Source: Thauera sedimentorum (GTDB lineage: Bacteria; Pseudomonadota; Gammaproteobacteria; Burkholderiales; Rhodocyclaceae). From it: a stretch of DNA of 64,000 bases. The position numbers were made by a program, and so were the translations under genes. This document shows, in pieces, positions 35,034 through 40,822 of this stretch. Positions within the stretch are counted from its first letter, which is position 1. The number at the start of each line of letters is the position of its first letter. The notes beneath the pieces were generated by a model, which searched no databases, had not been told where the DNA came from, and saw only the letters and a list, made by a program, of their open reading frames with translations. The stretch lies in assembly GCF_014489115.1 (NCBI RefSeq), contig NZ_JACTAH010000001.1, positions 1,798,001-1,862,000 on the forward strand, written 5' to 3'.

Positions 35034-35981
35034 TCAGGGCACCCACCAGTAGCGGACGATATGAAAGAGGATGGGTGCCGAGAAGCTCAGCGAATCGACA
35101 CGGTCGAGCATGCCGCCGTGGCCCTCGATCATGCATCCCCAGTCCTTGGCGCCGAGATCGCGCTTGATCGCCGACAGCACGAAACCACCGAAGAAGCCGA
35201 GGACATTGATGGTGAGCGCAATCGCGGCGGCCTGCAGTGGAGTGAACGGAGTGATCCACCACATCGCCGCTCCCACCAAGGTGGCGCTCAGTACGCCGCC
35301 AACCAGCCCCTCAAGCGTTTTCGACGGCGAGATGGACGGTGCAATCAGGCGTTTGCCGAAGAGTTTCCCCCATACGTACTGAAAGACATCGCTGGACTGC
35401 ACGGTGAGGATGAGAAAGACGATCAGCAGGGTGTTGCGCCCCTCGAAACCGGGCACTTCAAGGAGCAGCAGCGCCGGCACGTGGGACAGGCAATACACGC
35501 AGATCATCAGTCCCCACTGCACCTTGGCCGCGCGCTCCAGGAAACGCGTCGTGTCGGCTCCCAATGCCGCGGAGATCGGCAGCAACAGGAACGCGTAGAC
35601 CGGTATGAGGATGGAGAACAGGCCGTACCACGAGATCGAGATCAGGTAGTACTGCAAGGGCAGGAAAACGAAGAAGCACCAGATCAATGCGCGGTGATCG
35701 CCACGGCGCGTATGGGTGAGCGAGACGAACTCGCGCAGGCATTGGAAGGATATGAAGGCGAACAGCACGATGACCCCGCCCTGCCCCGCCCAGATTGCGG
35801 CGCCGATGAGCAGGATCATCGCCCACCAGGCCTTGAGGCGGGAATTGAGGTTGTCGATCGTCCCCTGGAGGTCTCCGTCGGCGAGGCGCCACTTGAGCAC
35901 CGCGCCGATCGCGCTGGCAATGGCCAGCACCGCGAAGATGCCGCCGAAGACCTGGAACAGGGTCTGGTCGAGGCTGGCCAT
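35034..35981 (-). CDS. CdsA-family phosphatidate cytidylyltransferase (YnbB-like)
   Basis: Would activate phosphatidic acid with CTP to CDP-diacylglycerol. The 315-residue membrane protein has about eight hydrophobic segments and the CDP-DAG synthase signature near the C-terminus (SAIKRDLGAKDWG, then GHGGMLDRVDSL). The ATG at 35981 has AGGAG seven bases upstream; a TTG at 35987 overlapping the upstream stop is possible but badly spaced. Position in a cluster with a CDP-alcohol phosphotransferase, an acyltransferase and a phosphatase marks it as an accessory enzyme of a special lipid rather than the housekeeping CdsA. It is the last gene of the operon. Confidence 0.92.
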   Translation of the reverse strand: MASLDQTLFQVFGGIFAVLAIASAIGAVLKWRLADGDLQGTIDNLNSRLKAWWAMILLIGAAIWAGQGGVIVLFAFISFQCLREFVSLTHTRRGDHRALIWCFFVFLPLQYYLISISWYGLFSILIPVYAFLLLPISAALGADTTRFLERAAKVQWGLMICVYCLSHVPALLLLEVPGFEGRNTLLIVFLILTVQSSDVFQYVWGKLFGKRLIAPSISPSKTLEGLVGGVLSATLVGAAMWWITPFTPLQAAAIALTINVLGFFGGFVLSAIKRDLGAKDWGCMIEGHGGMLDRVDSLSFSAPILFHIVRYWWVP

Positions 35982-35983
35982 GC

Positions 35984-36604
35984 TCAAGCTCCTGCAGGCG
36001 CGAGCGCGGTCAGGGCGGCACGCGCGCGGTTCAGGAAGTCAGCCTTGCTCTCTCCCTCGCTGAGGTTCATCGCAGGGCCGAAACTCAGTGTGCACAGCAG
36101 CGGCACCGGAACGATGCTGCCCTTGGGCATGACGCGACCGAGATTCTCGATCCACACCGGGACGAAGTGGAGTTGCGGCTGGGCACACGCAAGCCGGTAC
36201 ATGCCGCTCTTGAACGGCAACAGGCCGTCACCGAGATTGCGCGTACCCTCGGGAAAGACGATCAGCGAATCCCCGCACGCGAGGGCGGCTTCCATCTTGC
36301 CGACCGGATCGGCGGCCGGCGGGCGCCCGTTGCGTTCGATCAGCACCCCGCGAAACACCGACTGCGCAACATAACGACGCACCGCGCCGCGCAACCAGTA
36401 GTCGGCCCCCGCCACCGGGCGGGTCCGGAGGCGCATCGCGGCCGGCAGCGCCGCCCAGATCAGCAGGAAATCACCATGGCTGCGATGGTTGGCAAAGTAC
36501 ACGCACTGTCCGGCCGGCGGCGCACCGACCCATGTCGGCCTCACTCCGGTGAGCAGCTTGGCAAAACTGCACAGTGCCGCACCGGTCAATCTGGCAATGC
36601 TCAT
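35984..36604 (-). CDS. PlsC-like 1-acyl-glycerol-3-phosphate acyltransferase
   Basis: A 206-residue acyltransferase with the HX4D block in FANHRSHGDF (about residues 34-43), the substrate-binding FPEGTRNLGDG and a downstream VPVWIENL. It has a weak hydrophobic N-terminus. The ATG at 36604 was chosen because a long in-frame upstream extension is GC-rich shadow; GGAG and GGACGGGA lie just upstream. The stop is two bases before the CdsA-like ATG. It has no counterpart in E. coli ynbABCD, so it is an addition to this version of the cluster. Likely role: making or remodelling the phosphatidic acid used by the next enzyme. Confidence 0.9.
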   Translation of the reverse strand: MSIARLTGAALCSFAKLLTGVRPTWVGAPPAGQCVYFANHRSHGDFLLIWAALPAAMRLRTRPVAGADYWLRGAVRRYVAQSVFRGVLIERNGRPPAADPVGKMEAALACGDSLIVFPEGTRNLGDGLLPFKSGMYRLACAQPQLHFVPVWIENLGRVMPKGSIVPVPLLCTLSFGPAMNLSEGESKADFLNRARAALTALAPAGA

Positions 36605-36641
36605 TCCCGTCCTGTCTCCTCGATGATCATAAGGACGCCCG

Positions 36642-37079
36642 CTACCGTGCTTCGAGGATCGCCGCCGTCGCCACGCAGGCGGTCTGAAGCAAGACCAGCG
36701 CCCCCTGGCGCCACAAGAGTCGCCGCGCTCCGGCGCAGCGCTGCTCCAGCGACCGTGCCGCACCCCGGAAACCTCGCGCACGATCGAAGGCACCCATGTC
36801 GCGCAGCGGATCGGCAACCCCGGCAAGGACCCACGCCTGCCCCCAACGTCGGAAAACAGCTTCGTCGACCCGCACACGCAGGCCGTAGCCCTGCGCAGCC
36901 AGGGCGGCCACCAGACTGCCCGAAAGCCAGGGCCTGCCGGCCGCATCAACGAACAGTCCGACCAGCGCGAACAGGGCCAGCATGGCCGACCACCTGCCCA
37001 GCGGGCGGCCCAGCATCAGCAGATCGGCGCACCAGGCCGACAATGCGGCAGCATCCGCTCGTGCCGCGTCGACGCTCAA
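36642..37079 (-). CDS. Small membrane protein of the ynb-like operon, unknown
   Basis: I do not recognise this 145-residue protein. It has a hydrophobic segment at about residues 32-50 (WSAMLALFALVGLFVDAAG), a basic/arginine-rich middle, and a second hydrophobic stretch near the C-terminus (GALVLLQTACVATAAILEA). The start is inferred to be TTG at 37079: GGAGG lies seven bases upstream and TTGA overlaps the stop of the preceding gene. An ATG at 37112 would overlap the neighbour by 37 bases. It lies between the phosphatase and acyltransferase genes, so it probably serves the same membrane pathway. Confidence 0.6.
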   Translation of the reverse strand: MSVDAARADAAALSAWCADLLMLGRPLGRWSAMLALFALVGLFVDAAGRPWLSGSLVAALAAQGYGLRVRVDEAVFRRWGQAWVLAGVADPLRDMGAFDRARGFRGAARSLEQRCAGARRLLWRQGALVLLQTACVATAAILEAR

Positions 37080-38446
37080 GGCTGTTCCTCCGCGCCGATC
37101 AGGACCAGGCATGCCGCCAGCGCGCGGCGATGAGCTGCCCCCAGCACCACGCCAGGGCGCGCCCGTTCGACCTGCGCCACGGCATCATCGACGCCGTCCG
37201 CCCGCGCGCTGAGCAACAGCCACGCGGCCACCGCGCAGGCGCTGCGCGAGAAACCCAGTGCGCAGCACACCAGCACGGGCCCCTCGGCGCTCAGGGTTTC
37301 GATGTGCCGGGCGACCGCCAGCAGCGCACGGGCGTCGGGCGCCACCAGATCCAGCCAGGGCAGCCCCACGTAGCGCCAGTTGCCGCGCGGCGCAGGCAAT
37401 TCGGCGGTAAGGTCGACCAGGCTACCGAAACGCCCCGCACGCAGGTCGGCCGCCGACGGCATGCGCCCCAGCCAGACCTCACCCGCCACACGATCCGCGC
37501 GTCGCCGCCCGCGCGTCCACCAACGCGAGTTGAGCCATGCCCCCAACATGTAAGGCGCGAGCAGGCAGCGTGCGGCGACGCCCGGTCGTCCATCATGCTT
37601 CTGGAAGCCGCGCGCACCCGGTCCTAAATGGATCAGGGCCACCAGCAGCAGCGCCACGGCCGGCCAAAGCAGCCACAGCGCTGCGCCACCGCCGAGAAGC
37701 GCGATCGCTCCCAGCAAGGACGCGGCACCCAGGTAGATGGCACCCAGCCGCCGGCGGGTGGAATCCCGGGTCCATCGCCAGCCCGCCAGCGGCGAGGCTC
37801 CGCGGTCGGGCCACAGCCATACGCACAGCAGGCCGGCCAGTGCGCCGGTGGGCACGTCGATGAAGTGATGCTGGTAGGTCGTCAGGACGGACAGGGCGAT
37901 CAGCGCAGCCCAGCCATGCACCACGAGACGAGCGAGCCCTTGCGTTCCCAGTGCGAAGCGGATCCAGATCACCACCAATAGGCCGATGTGCAGCGAAGGC
38001 GCCTGGTTGTACGGTTGGTCGAAGTCCATCAGGACATCGAAGAGCAGGCCGAACAGCCCGTCGGTGTCGGGACGCGCGAACGAGAAGCGCAGGGGAAACG
38101 CAAGAAAGCAGGCCACTGACAGCACCTGTACGCTGAGCAGGCGCAAGGCATGCCGGTCGACCGTGAAACGATCGCGGCAGTATAGGAAGGACAGACCGTA
38201 GAGCAGATCGATGGACCAGTAGGGCACGATGGTCCACGCCCAGAATGGAAGTTGCCGCTCCCAGGCGAAGACCACCGCCGTACCGATCTCCCTGTCGGCG
38301 GCCACCGCATTCGCGTAGCCGTAGCTCAGGAAGAAGAACGGCCCGAGCAGCAGCAGCCAGCCGATGCTGCGCCGCCAGCATATGCGCCCGGCGGTCCCGC
38401 CCCAGTCTGCGGGCAGCGTGGCAACGGCTCCCGACTGCGCAGTCAT
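37076..38446 (-). CDS. PAP2 phosphatase fused to dual-specificity phosphatase (YnbD-like)
   Basis: A 456-residue membrane protein. The N-terminal half is a PAP2-type lipid phosphatase with about six helices and active-site parts in QAPSLHIG and HHFIDVPTGA. The C-terminal 130 residues form a cysteine phosphatase domain with the CX5R loop in CCALGFSRSA. This two-phosphatase fusion is the architecture of E. coli YnbD. It begins with an ATGA overlap on the stop of the hydrolase-methyltransferase gene and ends overlapping the next start. It may remove phosphate from a lipid intermediate such as a phosphatidyl-alcohol phosphate. Confidence 0.9.
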   Translation of the reverse strand: MTAQSGAVATLPADWGGTAGRICWRRSIGWLLLLGPFFFLSYGYANAVAADREIGTAVVFAWERQLPFWAWTIVPYWSIDLLYGLSFLYCRDRFTVDRHALRLLSVQVLSVACFLAFPLRFSFARPDTDGLFGLLFDVLMDFDQPYNQAPSLHIGLLVVIWIRFALGTQGLARLVVHGWAALIALSVLTTYQHHFIDVPTGALAGLLCVWLWPDRGASPLAGWRWTRDSTRRRLGAIYLGAASLLGAIALLGGGAALWLLWPAVALLLVALIHLGPGARGFQKHDGRPGVAARCLLAPYMLGAWLNSRWWTRGRRRADRVAGEVWLGRMPSAADLRAGRFGSLVDLTAELPAPRGNWRYVGLPWLDLVAPDARALLAVARHIETLSAEGPVLVCCALGFSRSACAVAAWLLLSARADGVDDAVAQVERARPGVVLGAAHRRALAACLVLIGAEEQP

Positions 38447-40197
38447 GCAGGCCGCCGCCGGGCCAGCAAGACGGTGAAGATCCCCCACTCGTCGATGCGC
38501 TGCGTCAACTTCTCGAAACCGGCGGCGGCGACCAACTGATCCATCTCGGCCTGCGTCCGGCGGCGCATGACCCACGCTGCCCCGCCACGGTGGCTGGTCA
38601 GCGCGCGGGCGATCATCTCCAGTTGCGGATGCCAGGGCTGTCCAGTGTAAATCAGGTATCCCCCCTCCTCCAGGCCCGCAGCGAGACCTGCCAGCGAACG
38701 GCCTACGAGCTCATTGTCCGCGAACAATTCATAGAGCCCAGAGACGATGCCCAGCGTGGGCTTCGGAGACAGGGACGCGAGGCTGTCGCAATCGAAGGCG
38801 TCGCCCTTCTCGAAACGGGCCACCCCTTCAAGGCCGCGCTGAGCGATCAGAGCCGCACCGTCGCGCACGTTGAGGTCGCTGAAATCGCGTAGCACGACGC
38901 TCTGCGGACGAAGCTCCGCGCGGGCGAGACCGTCGAGCACATAGCGGCCGTGACCGGCAGCCACGTCCACAAGCCGCAGTGGTCTGCCTTCGCGGTGAAG
39001 GCGCTCGAGAGCGTGCTGCAGGAGTTCCTCCACGTGCAACTTGCGCTGGCGGATGCCGCGCCAGCCGACCGCGTCGAGATAACTGCGATCGATCAGGCGC
39101 CCCAGCGGCCCGCGGCCGGTAGGCGTGTTTCGATACACGTAATCCAGCGTACTGCCCGAATCGAAGCCGGTACGATGCCCCAGCCGCACTCCCGCTGACA
39201 GCAAGCCACCGAGCTTGAGGCCGAGCCGGTAACACGCCCAGTACAACGCGCGCGGCGACCACGCCGGCAGCGGGGCTGCCAGCGCGCGGGCCTCCTCGTG
39301 GCTCGCTCCGGCGAGGTGGGCTGCGCGCAGGTCGACCTGCTCGTAGGGCTTGTCGAACTGGCGCAGGATGAACCCGCGGACCTTGTCCACCGCAATCCGG
39401 CGGTCGCGCTCGCCGAGAGTGTCGTGAAAGAAGCCGGGCAGCACGTGCTTCTCCTTGTCGGGAGCACCGAGACGCTCGAAGAAGGCGTGCTGCGGGCCTT
39501 GATGCACCACCCAATCCGCACCCGAGATCAACAGTTGCGTAGGTATTGTGATGGCCTGCGCATCGGCCACCACACGCTCCCCCGCTTCATAGAGGGCGAG
39601 CAGGATGTTCACCGATATCGCGCGGGCGATCAGCGGATCCTTGTCATATGAATCCTGGCGCGCTGGATCGTGGGTGAGGAACTTGGCCTTGACGTAGCTG
39701 TTGACGAAGAAATTGCCGCGCAAGCGGCGCATCAATGCCAGGCCGCTGCGCGCAAAGGGCACGTAGAGCTTGACCTTGAAGGCAGGCGAAGCCAGCACCA
39801 GGCAACGCACGTGAGGGGCGTAGTCATGCGCCCAGGTGGAGATCAGTACGGCGCCGACGCTCTGTGCCAGCACCGCCATGTCCTGCGGAGCGATTCCCCA
39901 CTGTTGCTCGATGTGCTCGATGAAGGTCTGCACGTCGCGCACCGAGGTACCGAAACTTGGCGAGTCGCCGCGTGCTCCAGGCGAGTGACCGTGCCCGCGC
40001 GCATCCCAGGCGAAGAGATCGAAGGCGCGCAGATCGAGCTCGTCCACCAGATGGGCCATGCGCAGGGAGTGCTCGTGGCCCCGATGGAACATCACCACGC
40101 ACCCCCGGCGCCGCTCGACTGCGGGCCAGTGCCGGTAGAACAACTGCTCGCCATCGTGGGTGGTGAAGGCGTACGACTGATGAGGGCGATCGGTCAT
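38443..40197 (-). CDS. Alpha/beta hydrolase-methyltransferase fusion (YnbC-like)
   Basis: A 584-residue fusion. Residues about 10-300 are an alpha/beta hydrolase of the monoglyceride-lipase type (FHRGHEHSLRM, nucleophile region LAQSVGAVL, histidine in LPGFFHDTL). Residues about 370-580 are a class I SAM-dependent methyltransferase with VDVAAGHGRYVLDGL as motif I. The nucleophile elbow reads A-Q-S-V-G rather than strict GXSXG. The same fusion is found in E. coli YnbC. ATG 40197 has AAGGGA upstream; the longer frame is shadow. It starts 4 bases after the phosphotransferase gene and overlaps the next gene by ATGA. Confidence 0.9.
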   Translation of the reverse strand: MTDRPHQSYAFTTHDGEQLFYRHWPAVERRRGCVVMFHRGHEHSLRMAHLVDELDLRAFDLFAWDARGHGHSPGARGDSPSFGTSVRDVQTFIEHIEQQWGIAPQDMAVLAQSVGAVLISTWAHDYAPHVRCLVLASPAFKVKLYVPFARSGLALMRRLRGNFFVNSYVKAKFLTHDPARQDSYDKDPLIARAISVNILLALYEAGERVVADAQAITIPTQLLISGADWVVHQGPQHAFFERLGAPDKEKHVLPGFFHDTLGERDRRIAVDKVRGFILRQFDKPYEQVDLRAAHLAGASHEEARALAAPLPAWSPRALYWACYRLGLKLGGLLSAGVRLGHRTGFDSGSTLDYVYRNTPTGRGPLGRLIDRSYLDAVGWRGIRQRKLHVEELLQHALERLHREGRPLRLVDVAAGHGRYVLDGLARAELRPQSVVLRDFSDLNVRDGAALIAQRGLEGVARFEKGDAFDCDSLASLSPKPTLGIVSGLYELFADNELVGRSLAGLAAGLEEGGYLIYTGQPWHPQLEMIARALTSHRGGAAWVMRRRTQAEMDQLVAAAGFEKLTQRIDEWGIFTVLLARRRPA

Positions 40198-40201
40198 GGA
40201 A

Positions 40202-40822
40202 TTATCCCTTAGGGTGGGGGCGGACGGCCTGGCGCACGCCGCTGCGCACGCGATTGATGATGCTGGCGCCGATGGCGAGCGCGATGGCGGGCATGGACCA
40301 GGCGAGCCAGTCGGGAAGCCCTCCGGCCAACCCGACCCACAAGCCGAGAGCGCCGAAAACCAAGGCGCGGTCGCTCTTGCCCATCGGGCCGTCATAGCAC
40401 CGGGGAGCCCCGACCATCGGCGCCATGGCGCCGGCCATCTCGGCGATGACCGACAGCAGGATCACCGCGCCGACCGACAAGCAGCCAAACGGGGCGATCA
40501 ATGCAAAGGGCAGGTATAGCGCGGCATCAGATACGACGTCGGCAAGCTCATTGAGATAGGCTCCGAGCGCGCTCTGCTGGCCGAACTCCCGCGCGAGCAT
40601 GCCGTCGACGGCGTTGAGGCCCATGCGCAGCAGCATCCACACTGGCAGCAACAGGAAGAGCGCCGTCTGCCCGGAAAAGAAGAGCGCGCATCCCAGCGCG
40701 ACGGACCCCGCGAGCGCGGCGACTGTGACGGCGTTGGCGGTAACGCCTGCCCGGGCCAGTCGTTTCACCAACGGACGAAGGAGCGCCTGAAAGGCAGGCT
40801 TCAACCGATAGACTGATGTCAT
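40202..40822 (-). CDS. CDP-alcohol phosphatidyltransferase (YnbA-like)
   Basis: Transfers a phosphatidyl group from CDP-DAG to an alcohol. The 206-residue membrane protein has five or six helices and the CDP-OH-P signature in VDGMLAREFGQQSALGAYLN followed by ELADVVSD. In the consensus DGxxARx8GxxxDxxxD the third aspartate is replaced by asparagine (GAYLN). That may be a trait of the YnbA subgroup or signal altered chemistry. It is the first gene of a six-gene minus-strand operon; the weak ribosome site (no clear GGAG) and upstream AT-rich stretch at 40831-40856 suggest a promoter there. Confidence 0.9.
   Translation of the reverse strand: MTSVYRLKPAFQALLRPLVKRLARAGVTANAVTVAALAGSVALGCALFFSGQTALFLLLPVWMLLRMGLNAVDGMLAREFGQQSALGAYLNELADVVSDAALYLPFALIAPFGCLSVGAVILLSVIAEMAGAMAPMVGAPRCYDGPMGKSDRALVFGALGLWVGLAGGLPDWLAWSMPAIALAIGASIINRVRSGVRQAVRPHPKG

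Follow-up and report, generated by a model that had tools for sequence, protein, structure and literature searches.

Within a 64,000-nucleotide stretch of the Thauera sedimentorum genome (contig NZ_JACTAH010000001.1; the whole stretch is called the window below), six minus-strand genes fill positions 40822-35034 and are the orthologue of arc1A-F, the "antagonism resistance cluster 1" of Pseudomonas aeruginosa (PA2541-PA2536; Ting et al. 2022, PMC8926400; the papers cited here and below are drawn on in excerpt). They make up a complete Arc1 operon in a betaproteobacterium. The result links the orphan ynbABCD genes of Escherichia coli to a published defence locus, and likewise a six-gene lipid operon of many Pseudomonas, Burkholderiales and Rhodocyclales genomes. 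It also poses a sharp biochemical question for Arc1, whose head-group transferase has two fixed asparagines at positions for which aspartate is described as essential in the superfamily. The product lipid, if new, could protect broadly against phospholipase toxins. In the order of transcription (A-C-D-S-P-B), the genes are:

40202..40822, minus strand: gene A, an arc1A/ynbA-like CDP-alcohol phosphotransferase (CDP-AP) of 206 aa (CDP-OH_P_transf PF01066, 32.8 bits against a cut-off of 22; AlphaFold2 model).
38443..40197, minus strand: gene C, an arc1B/ynbC-like fusion of alpha/beta-hydrolase and methyltransferase, 584 aa (Hydrolase_4 PF12146, 235.3 bits; Methyltransf_20 PF12147, 502.2 bits).
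37076..38446, minus strand: gene D, an arc1C/ynbD-like fusion of a PAP2-like domain and a dual-specificity phosphatase (PAP2-DSP), 456 aa (DSPc PF00782, 34.1 bits; PF01569, 26.8 bits; CX5R, PSLH and HHxxD conserved).
36642..37079, minus strand: gene S, the arc1D small membrane protein, 145 aa, with a TTG start (profile match in 24/26 drawn loci; five-helix model).
35984..36604, minus strand: gene P, an arc1E PlsC-type acyltransferase of 206 aa (Acyltransferase PF01553, 63 bits; NHxSHxD and FPEGTR conserved).
35034..35981, minus strand: gene B, an arc1F/ynbB-like CdsA-type cytidylyltransferase of 315 aa (CTP_transf_1 PF01148, 215.9 bits; C-terminal CdsA signature conserved).

The identity with arc1 was examined by matching the gene parts of the nine printed arc1 primers (PMC8926400) to the corresponding locus of P. 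aeruginosa PA7 (L080). Eight of the nine fitted with no more than one mismatch, at both ends of gene A, both ends of gene B and sites close by; the best fit of the ninth had 5 mismatches. For three control primers directed at other loci, the best fits had 4, 7 and 4 mismatches. The Thauera operon has the same six families in the same order as the PA7 locus and, judged by gene content, the locus in the window is almost certainly a member of Arc1.

In P. aeruginosa, arc1 is under Gac/Rsm control with very low basal expression, and its role is mainly defensive, against the type VI secretion system (T6SS) of Burkholderia thailandensis; arc1 affects the survival of B. thailandensis modestly and plays no part in the general stresses tested (PMC8926400). 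Deletion of arc1A alone produces a defence defect (PMC8926400), and arc1A is important against lipase effectors of Vibrio cholerae and Acinetobacter baylyi (PMC12663445). With both a defence phenotype and a mode of regulation published, the operon is not wholly uncharacterised, although an earlier note made on this DNA had spoken of an "uncharacterised" ynbABCD type. The two settings differ: the P. aeruginosa locus is gammaproteobacterial and Gac/Rsm is described as restricted to gammaproteobacteria (PMC8926400), whereas the window comes from a betaproteobacterial host whose genome (3.96 Mb, four contigs) has no match to the T6SS sheath gene.

We then asked how regularly the six genes occur together, using the hydrolase-methyltransferase (the gene C family) as a marker. 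Of 398 evenly drawn Pseudomonadota genomes, the fairer of our two samples, 27 had the marker. Around each of the 26 drawn marker loci other than the window's own, ~12 kb was fetched. Gene A lay beside gene C in all 26, twice on the opposite strand; D and S were each near the marker in 24/26, P and B in 23/26, and the complete six-gene set was found in 22/26. Because this linkage recurs in the drawn loci, the set is not a chance grouping, and the conserved linkage on which the earlier note had staked its proposal is borne out. A scan of the species-genome collection gave at least 549 confirmed hydrolase-methyltransferase relatives, and the best 80 loci, a sample biased to near relatives, contained all six families in 74 cases (76/84 once four plasmid loci, L004-L007, were added). 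The six incomplete loci (L030, L042, L067, L094, L097 and L098) either sit on short contigs or break off close to the match. The linkage was seen across alpha-, beta- and gammaproteobacteria; Pseudothauera lacus (NZ_PZKC01000001.1) also carries the operon, and arc1-type sets occur on plasmids of Shinella, Burkholderia ambifaria and E. coli, the Shinella set with a stop codon within gene C. Among the relatives the distribution is patchy, with the marker in 11 of the 61 genomes searched (window's genome included).

Profiles made from the window's families hit all four genes of E. coli K-12 ynbABCD. The shared families are a CDP-AP with the same Asn/Asn signature described below, CdsA, the hydrolase-methyltransferase and PAP2-DSP, as the earlier note had recognised. 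K-12 has neither the PlsC-type gene nor the small membrane protein, and its order (ynbA, then ynbB, which is the CdsA gene, ynbC and ynbD) differs from that of the window. Since 22/26 drawn loci and 74/80 best loci are complete and K-12 has only four of the genes, the operon usually takes the six-gene form. The relationship is thus the reverse of that first proposed: the window's operon is not an extended ynbABCD; rather, ynbABCD of K-12 is a reduced and rearranged form.

The signature of the CDP-AP superfamily is D1xxD2GxxAR...GxxxD3xxxD4, whose eight residues are described as absolutely conserved, with D1-D3 as metal ligands and D4 as the likely base (PMC4634129). Two Mg ions are held by the signature aspartates, with D3 bridging both in one chain (PMC6506517). 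Arc1A keeps six of the eight residues and departs from the signature at D1 and D3. The relevant features of gene A are:

40538..40615, minus strand: variant CDP-AP signature, residues 70-95, NxxDGxxAR(x8)GxxxNExxD, with Asn at D1 and D3.
40367..40369, minus strand: codon of Arg152, aligned with the acceptor-phosphate Arg153 of RsPIPS.
40250..40252, minus strand: codon of Arg191, aligned with the acceptor-phosphate Arg191 of RsPIPS.

The departure is fixed in the family. Among the best 120 of 7994 Arc1A homologues, Asn was found at D1 in all 113 aligned sequences with a letter there and at D3 in 113/114, the remaining one having Gln. Both Asn were present in 118 of the 121 listed homologues, the other three not being read by the pattern, and both are present in E. 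coli YnbA. D2, D4, the G, A, R and G of the signature and the two acceptor-phosphate arginines were kept in at least 112 aligned sequences. In an alignment to RsPIPS, whose numbering offset of 138 was deduced from the distance between the two arginines, N70 matches D66, D73 matches D69, N91 matches D87, D95 matches D91, R152 matches R153 and R191 matches R191. As a control, we took the two ordinary CDP-APs of the window's genome and the 30 best-scoring ones from the 61 relatives. All 32 have Asp at both D1 and D3; three pattern hits in the control loci that were not Asp/Asp (Q/L twice, G/K once) were set aside as other frames, without individual checks.

The AlphaFold2 model of gene A (pLDDT 94) has the CDP-AP fold, and its nearest solved folds are phosphatidylinositol phosphate (PIP) synthases. 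Like these, Arc1A keeps both acceptor-phosphate arginines and the catalytic base; unlike RsPIPS, MtPgsA1 and MkPIPS, it has Asn at D1 and D3, and it scores far below the PIP synthase cut-offs of NCBIfam (48.0 against 170 bits for NF045883 and 64.7 against 180 bits for NF040950). The fixed Asn pair is a newly noticed departure from the superfamily signature: among the open-access papers listed by our searches, which cover few subscription papers, we found no report of an Asn/Asn signature.

The Asn pair was also found outside Arc1. Of 20 lower-scoring CDP-APs of the relatives, 16 were Asp/Asp, three were Asn/Asn and one was unread. The three Asn/Asn genes (L202, L203 and L204, in genomes G038, G033 and G017) adjoin Arc1-type P and B genes without C, D or S, and no hydrolase-methyltransferase match was found in these genomes; at L202 the contig end lies just above gene A. 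No Arc1-type P or B was found near the 16 Asp/Asp genes, for most of which ~2 kb of flanking DNA was fetched on either side (5 kb in three cases). In a second, distant clade, from Rhizobium and relatives, the 120 best of 4919 homologues were all Asn/Asn, and P and B adjoined the Asn/Asn CDP-AP in 5/5 loci examined, with the Neorhizobium P split over two frames. These three-gene clusters, on plasmids of Rhizobium, Sinorhizobium, Paracoccus, Nitratireductor and Neorhizobium, share with Arc1 an Asn/Asn CDP-AP and adjoining PlsC and CdsA paralogues. They differ from it in that the CDP-AP is distant (32% identity to Arc1A over 91 residues for L007) and that no hydrolase-methyltransferase, PAP2-DSP or Arc1D was found in the loci examined.

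Taken across Arc1, L202-L204 and the rhizobial clusters, the Asn pair tracks a PlsC-CdsA-CDP-AP core, with E. coli K-12, which has no P, as an exception to the PlsC part. Read from the gene families, Arc1 appears to be this core plus a finishing module. We suggest tentatively, as a possibility that falls somewhat short of even chances, that the Asn/Asn CDP-APs are a distinct enzyme class with its own CdsA and usually its own PlsC, and with a changed metal site and hence a changed donor, acceptor or mechanism. Such a class would make an undescribed lipid, to which Arc1 (ynbABCD included) would add the hydrolase-methyltransferase, PAP2-DSP and small protein.

The rhizobial-type clusters have some features of their own. 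In the plasmid clusters L007 and L168-L171, the AR of the CDP-AP signature is replaced by AI or AV. The Neorhizobium and Nitratireductor clusters have an extra protein of ~130 aa between CdsA and the CDP-AP, and the Nitratireductor cluster is flanked by ugp genes (glycerol-3-phosphate uptake) on one side and iol genes (inositol catabolism) on the other.

Catalytic-residue conservation in the five enzymes was scored over 103-118 sequences per family. It reached ≥97% at Ser113, Asp228, His258 and the AAGHGRY motif of gene C; in gene D, at the CX5R residues C395 and R401 and at PSLH and HHxxD; at NHxSHxD and FPEGTR of gene P; and at the C-terminal CdsA signature of gene B. The nearest solved chains to the hydrolase half of gene C are monoglyceride lipases (6eic, E 5.1e-24); the phosphatase half of gene D comes closest to ShufPTP and dual-specificity phosphatases, PTPMT1 ranking lower. 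Apart from the altered D1 and D3 of Arc1A, the Arc1 enzymes look active by these residues.

Together, these results suggest that the operon is, rather probably, an inducible and self-contained phospholipid pathway. Arc1E (PlsC) would acylate lysophosphatidate to phosphatidate, and Arc1F, a CdsA paralogue, would convert this to CDP-diacylglycerol (CDP-DAG). Arc1A, PIP-synthase-like with a variant Asn/Asp metal site, would couple CDP-DAG to a phosphorylated polyol, giving a phosphatidyl-polyol phosphate; an acceptor of this kind fits with the retention of D2, D4 and both acceptor-phosphate arginines and with the presence of a phosphatase in the operon. One phosphatase domain of Arc1C may then take off the extra phosphate, the lipase-like and methyltransferase domains of Arc1B may trim and methylate the substrate or product, Arc1D may serve as a membrane accessory, and the product lipid may strengthen or repair membrane attacked by phospholipases. 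The reactions, their order, the product and its mode of protection are inferred; the logic from phosphatidate through CDP-DAG and head-group transfer to dephosphorylation, which the earlier note had set out, is coherent and stands as a proposal. As for the head group, inositol phosphate made de novo is unlikely: the inositol-phosphate synthase family PF01658 was not found in the window's genome, nor in 25 of the 27 marker genomes, and it shows no association with the marker (2/27 with, 34/371 without, p = 1). Imported inositol phosphate is a possible head group.

A role in defence can be set against the distribution of related functions in the 398 drawn genomes. The T6SS sheath gene TssC was found in 18/27 marker genomes compared with 69/371 without the marker (Fisher p 2.4e-7), and Arc3A (PF10101) in 14/27 compared with 71/371 (p 2.8e-4); these p-values ignore phylogeny and genome size, and counted by genus TssC is in 8/13 and Arc3A in 6/13 marker genera. 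Three of the 27 marker genomes have neither. By analogy with P. aeruginosa, we predict a defence role for Arc1 in the Thauera host. The genome of this host has an Arc3A (DUF2339) homologue outside the window (G000:C1:1042396-1044684).

Several observations weigh against the pathway as drawn or against its role in defence, as does the neglect of phylogeny and genome size in the co-occurrence tests. A sheath-family search gave no TssC match in the window's genome, so that Arc1 is unlikely to be linked to a T6SS in its own host, though it may defend against the weapons of others; with no TssC match in the host and the marker in just 11/61 relatives, its role there is proposed by analogy. The phenotype of arc1 was not explained by any one B. 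thailandensis effector (PMC8926400), and arc1A is seemingly auxiliary beside arc3A (PMC12663445). YnbD failed to complement strains deficient in phosphatidylglycerophosphate (PGP) phosphatase or C55-PP phosphatase (PMC7413402). We found no report of an Arc1 lipid product among the open-access papers listed, with the same limited coverage of subscription papers, and the passages of the Lipocone paper (PMC12419801) that we consulted contain nothing on an Arc1-type operon. The substitutions in MjPSS, taken up below, belong here too.

Of the other explanations, the first is a spare, inducible route to phosphatidylglycerol (PG), in which Arc1A would be a PGP synthase and Arc1C a PGP phosphatase, and the product would be ordinary PG or cardiolipin, made at the place and time of need. 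Four of the six arc1 products are likened to PG-synthesis enzymes in PMC8926400, and PTPMT1 is among the solved phosphatases that resemble Arc1C, though far from the top; gene A scores 18.1 bits against the 109.1-bit cut-off of TIGR00560, the PgsA (PGP synthase) family. We consider this route unlikely. A decidedly unlikely alternative is salvage of phospholipase debris, with the lipase-like domain and PlsC recycling lysolipids to phosphatidate, and CdsA and Arc1A making ordinary phospholipids from it. The phenotype of arc1A against lipase effectors (PMC12663445) and the presence of both a monoglyceride-lipase-like hydrolase and a PlsC in the operon are consistent with salvage. However, Aas in P. 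aeruginosa already turns lysophosphatidylethanolamine back into phosphatidylethanolamine (PMC8926400), and plain salvage needs neither an Asn/Asn CDP-AP, nor separate A-P-B clusters, nor a methyltransferase.

The Asn pair itself raises the question of whether Arc1A is a transferase. In MjPSS, every tested replacement of a signature residue with Ser or Asn reduced activity or eliminated it (PMC8633023), and thus the Asn pair could be a sign that Arc1A does not work as a transferase of known kind. It might instead bind CDP-DAG and serve the other enzymes as a sensor, scaffold or carrier. The retention of D2, D4, G, A, R, G and both arginines in at least 112 sequences goes beyond what a non-enzyme would need, and the defence defect of the arc1A single deletion (PMC8926400) is compatible with either reading; we regard the loss of transferase function as improbable. 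Support of the glycolipid MPIase, with the CdsA-like enzyme making N-acetylglucosamine-PP-diacylglycerol, is very improbable: overproduced E. coli YnbB raised MPIase and could not replace CdsA for growth, but a ynbB knockout did not significantly change the MPIase level (PMC6362211), and the other five genes would be left unexplained.

The layout of the operon agrees with the earlier description of six near-abutting or overlapping minus-strand genes in this order, the intergenic distances being 4, -4, -4, 37 and 2 bases. Five of the six genes (A, C, D, P and B) have a Pfam family above cut-off. DSPc in gene D barely clears it (34.1 against 33.5 bits), and PAP2 (PF01569) in the N-terminal half of gene D, at 26.8 bits, is 0.4 below its cut-off of 27.2 with the histidine motifs PSLH and HHxxD kept. 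The Pfam search gave no family for gene S, for which there is a confident structure model of five helices. Its start is most likely the TTG at 37079, overlapping the gene D stop; an ATG at 37112 is a possible alternative. None of the six proteins matched the PADLOC-DB 2.0.0 defence models at E≤0.001. Scans for regulatory sites gave a single weak promoter-like site, at 40879-40851, where 0.5 were expected, and seven terminator-like sites against an expected 4.2; neither result was used.

Some individual loci depart from the common arrangement. The E. coli plasmid pFHI_NMBU_11_02 (L006) has the order A-B-P-C followed by a mere remnant of the PAP2-DSP gene, apparently a decaying copy; its gene A is missing from the incomplete gene table of PLSDB. 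In genome G041, a third copy of the hydrolase-methyltransferase (L020/L167) is divergent (41% identical), with QGRSA replacing QSVGA (no catalytic serine) and an altered S-adenosylmethionine motif, and no further arc1 gene was found within the 8.8 kb fetched. In some Pseudomonas loci (15 of the 84, L032, L063 and L095 among them), a second PlsC-type acyltransferase gene lies immediately upstream of arc1A. On the 19 kb plasmid of Burkholderia ambifaria (L004), the PlsC and CdsA genes are divergent from the other four arc1 genes, and bcsB and bcsZ (cellulose synthesis) are nearby.

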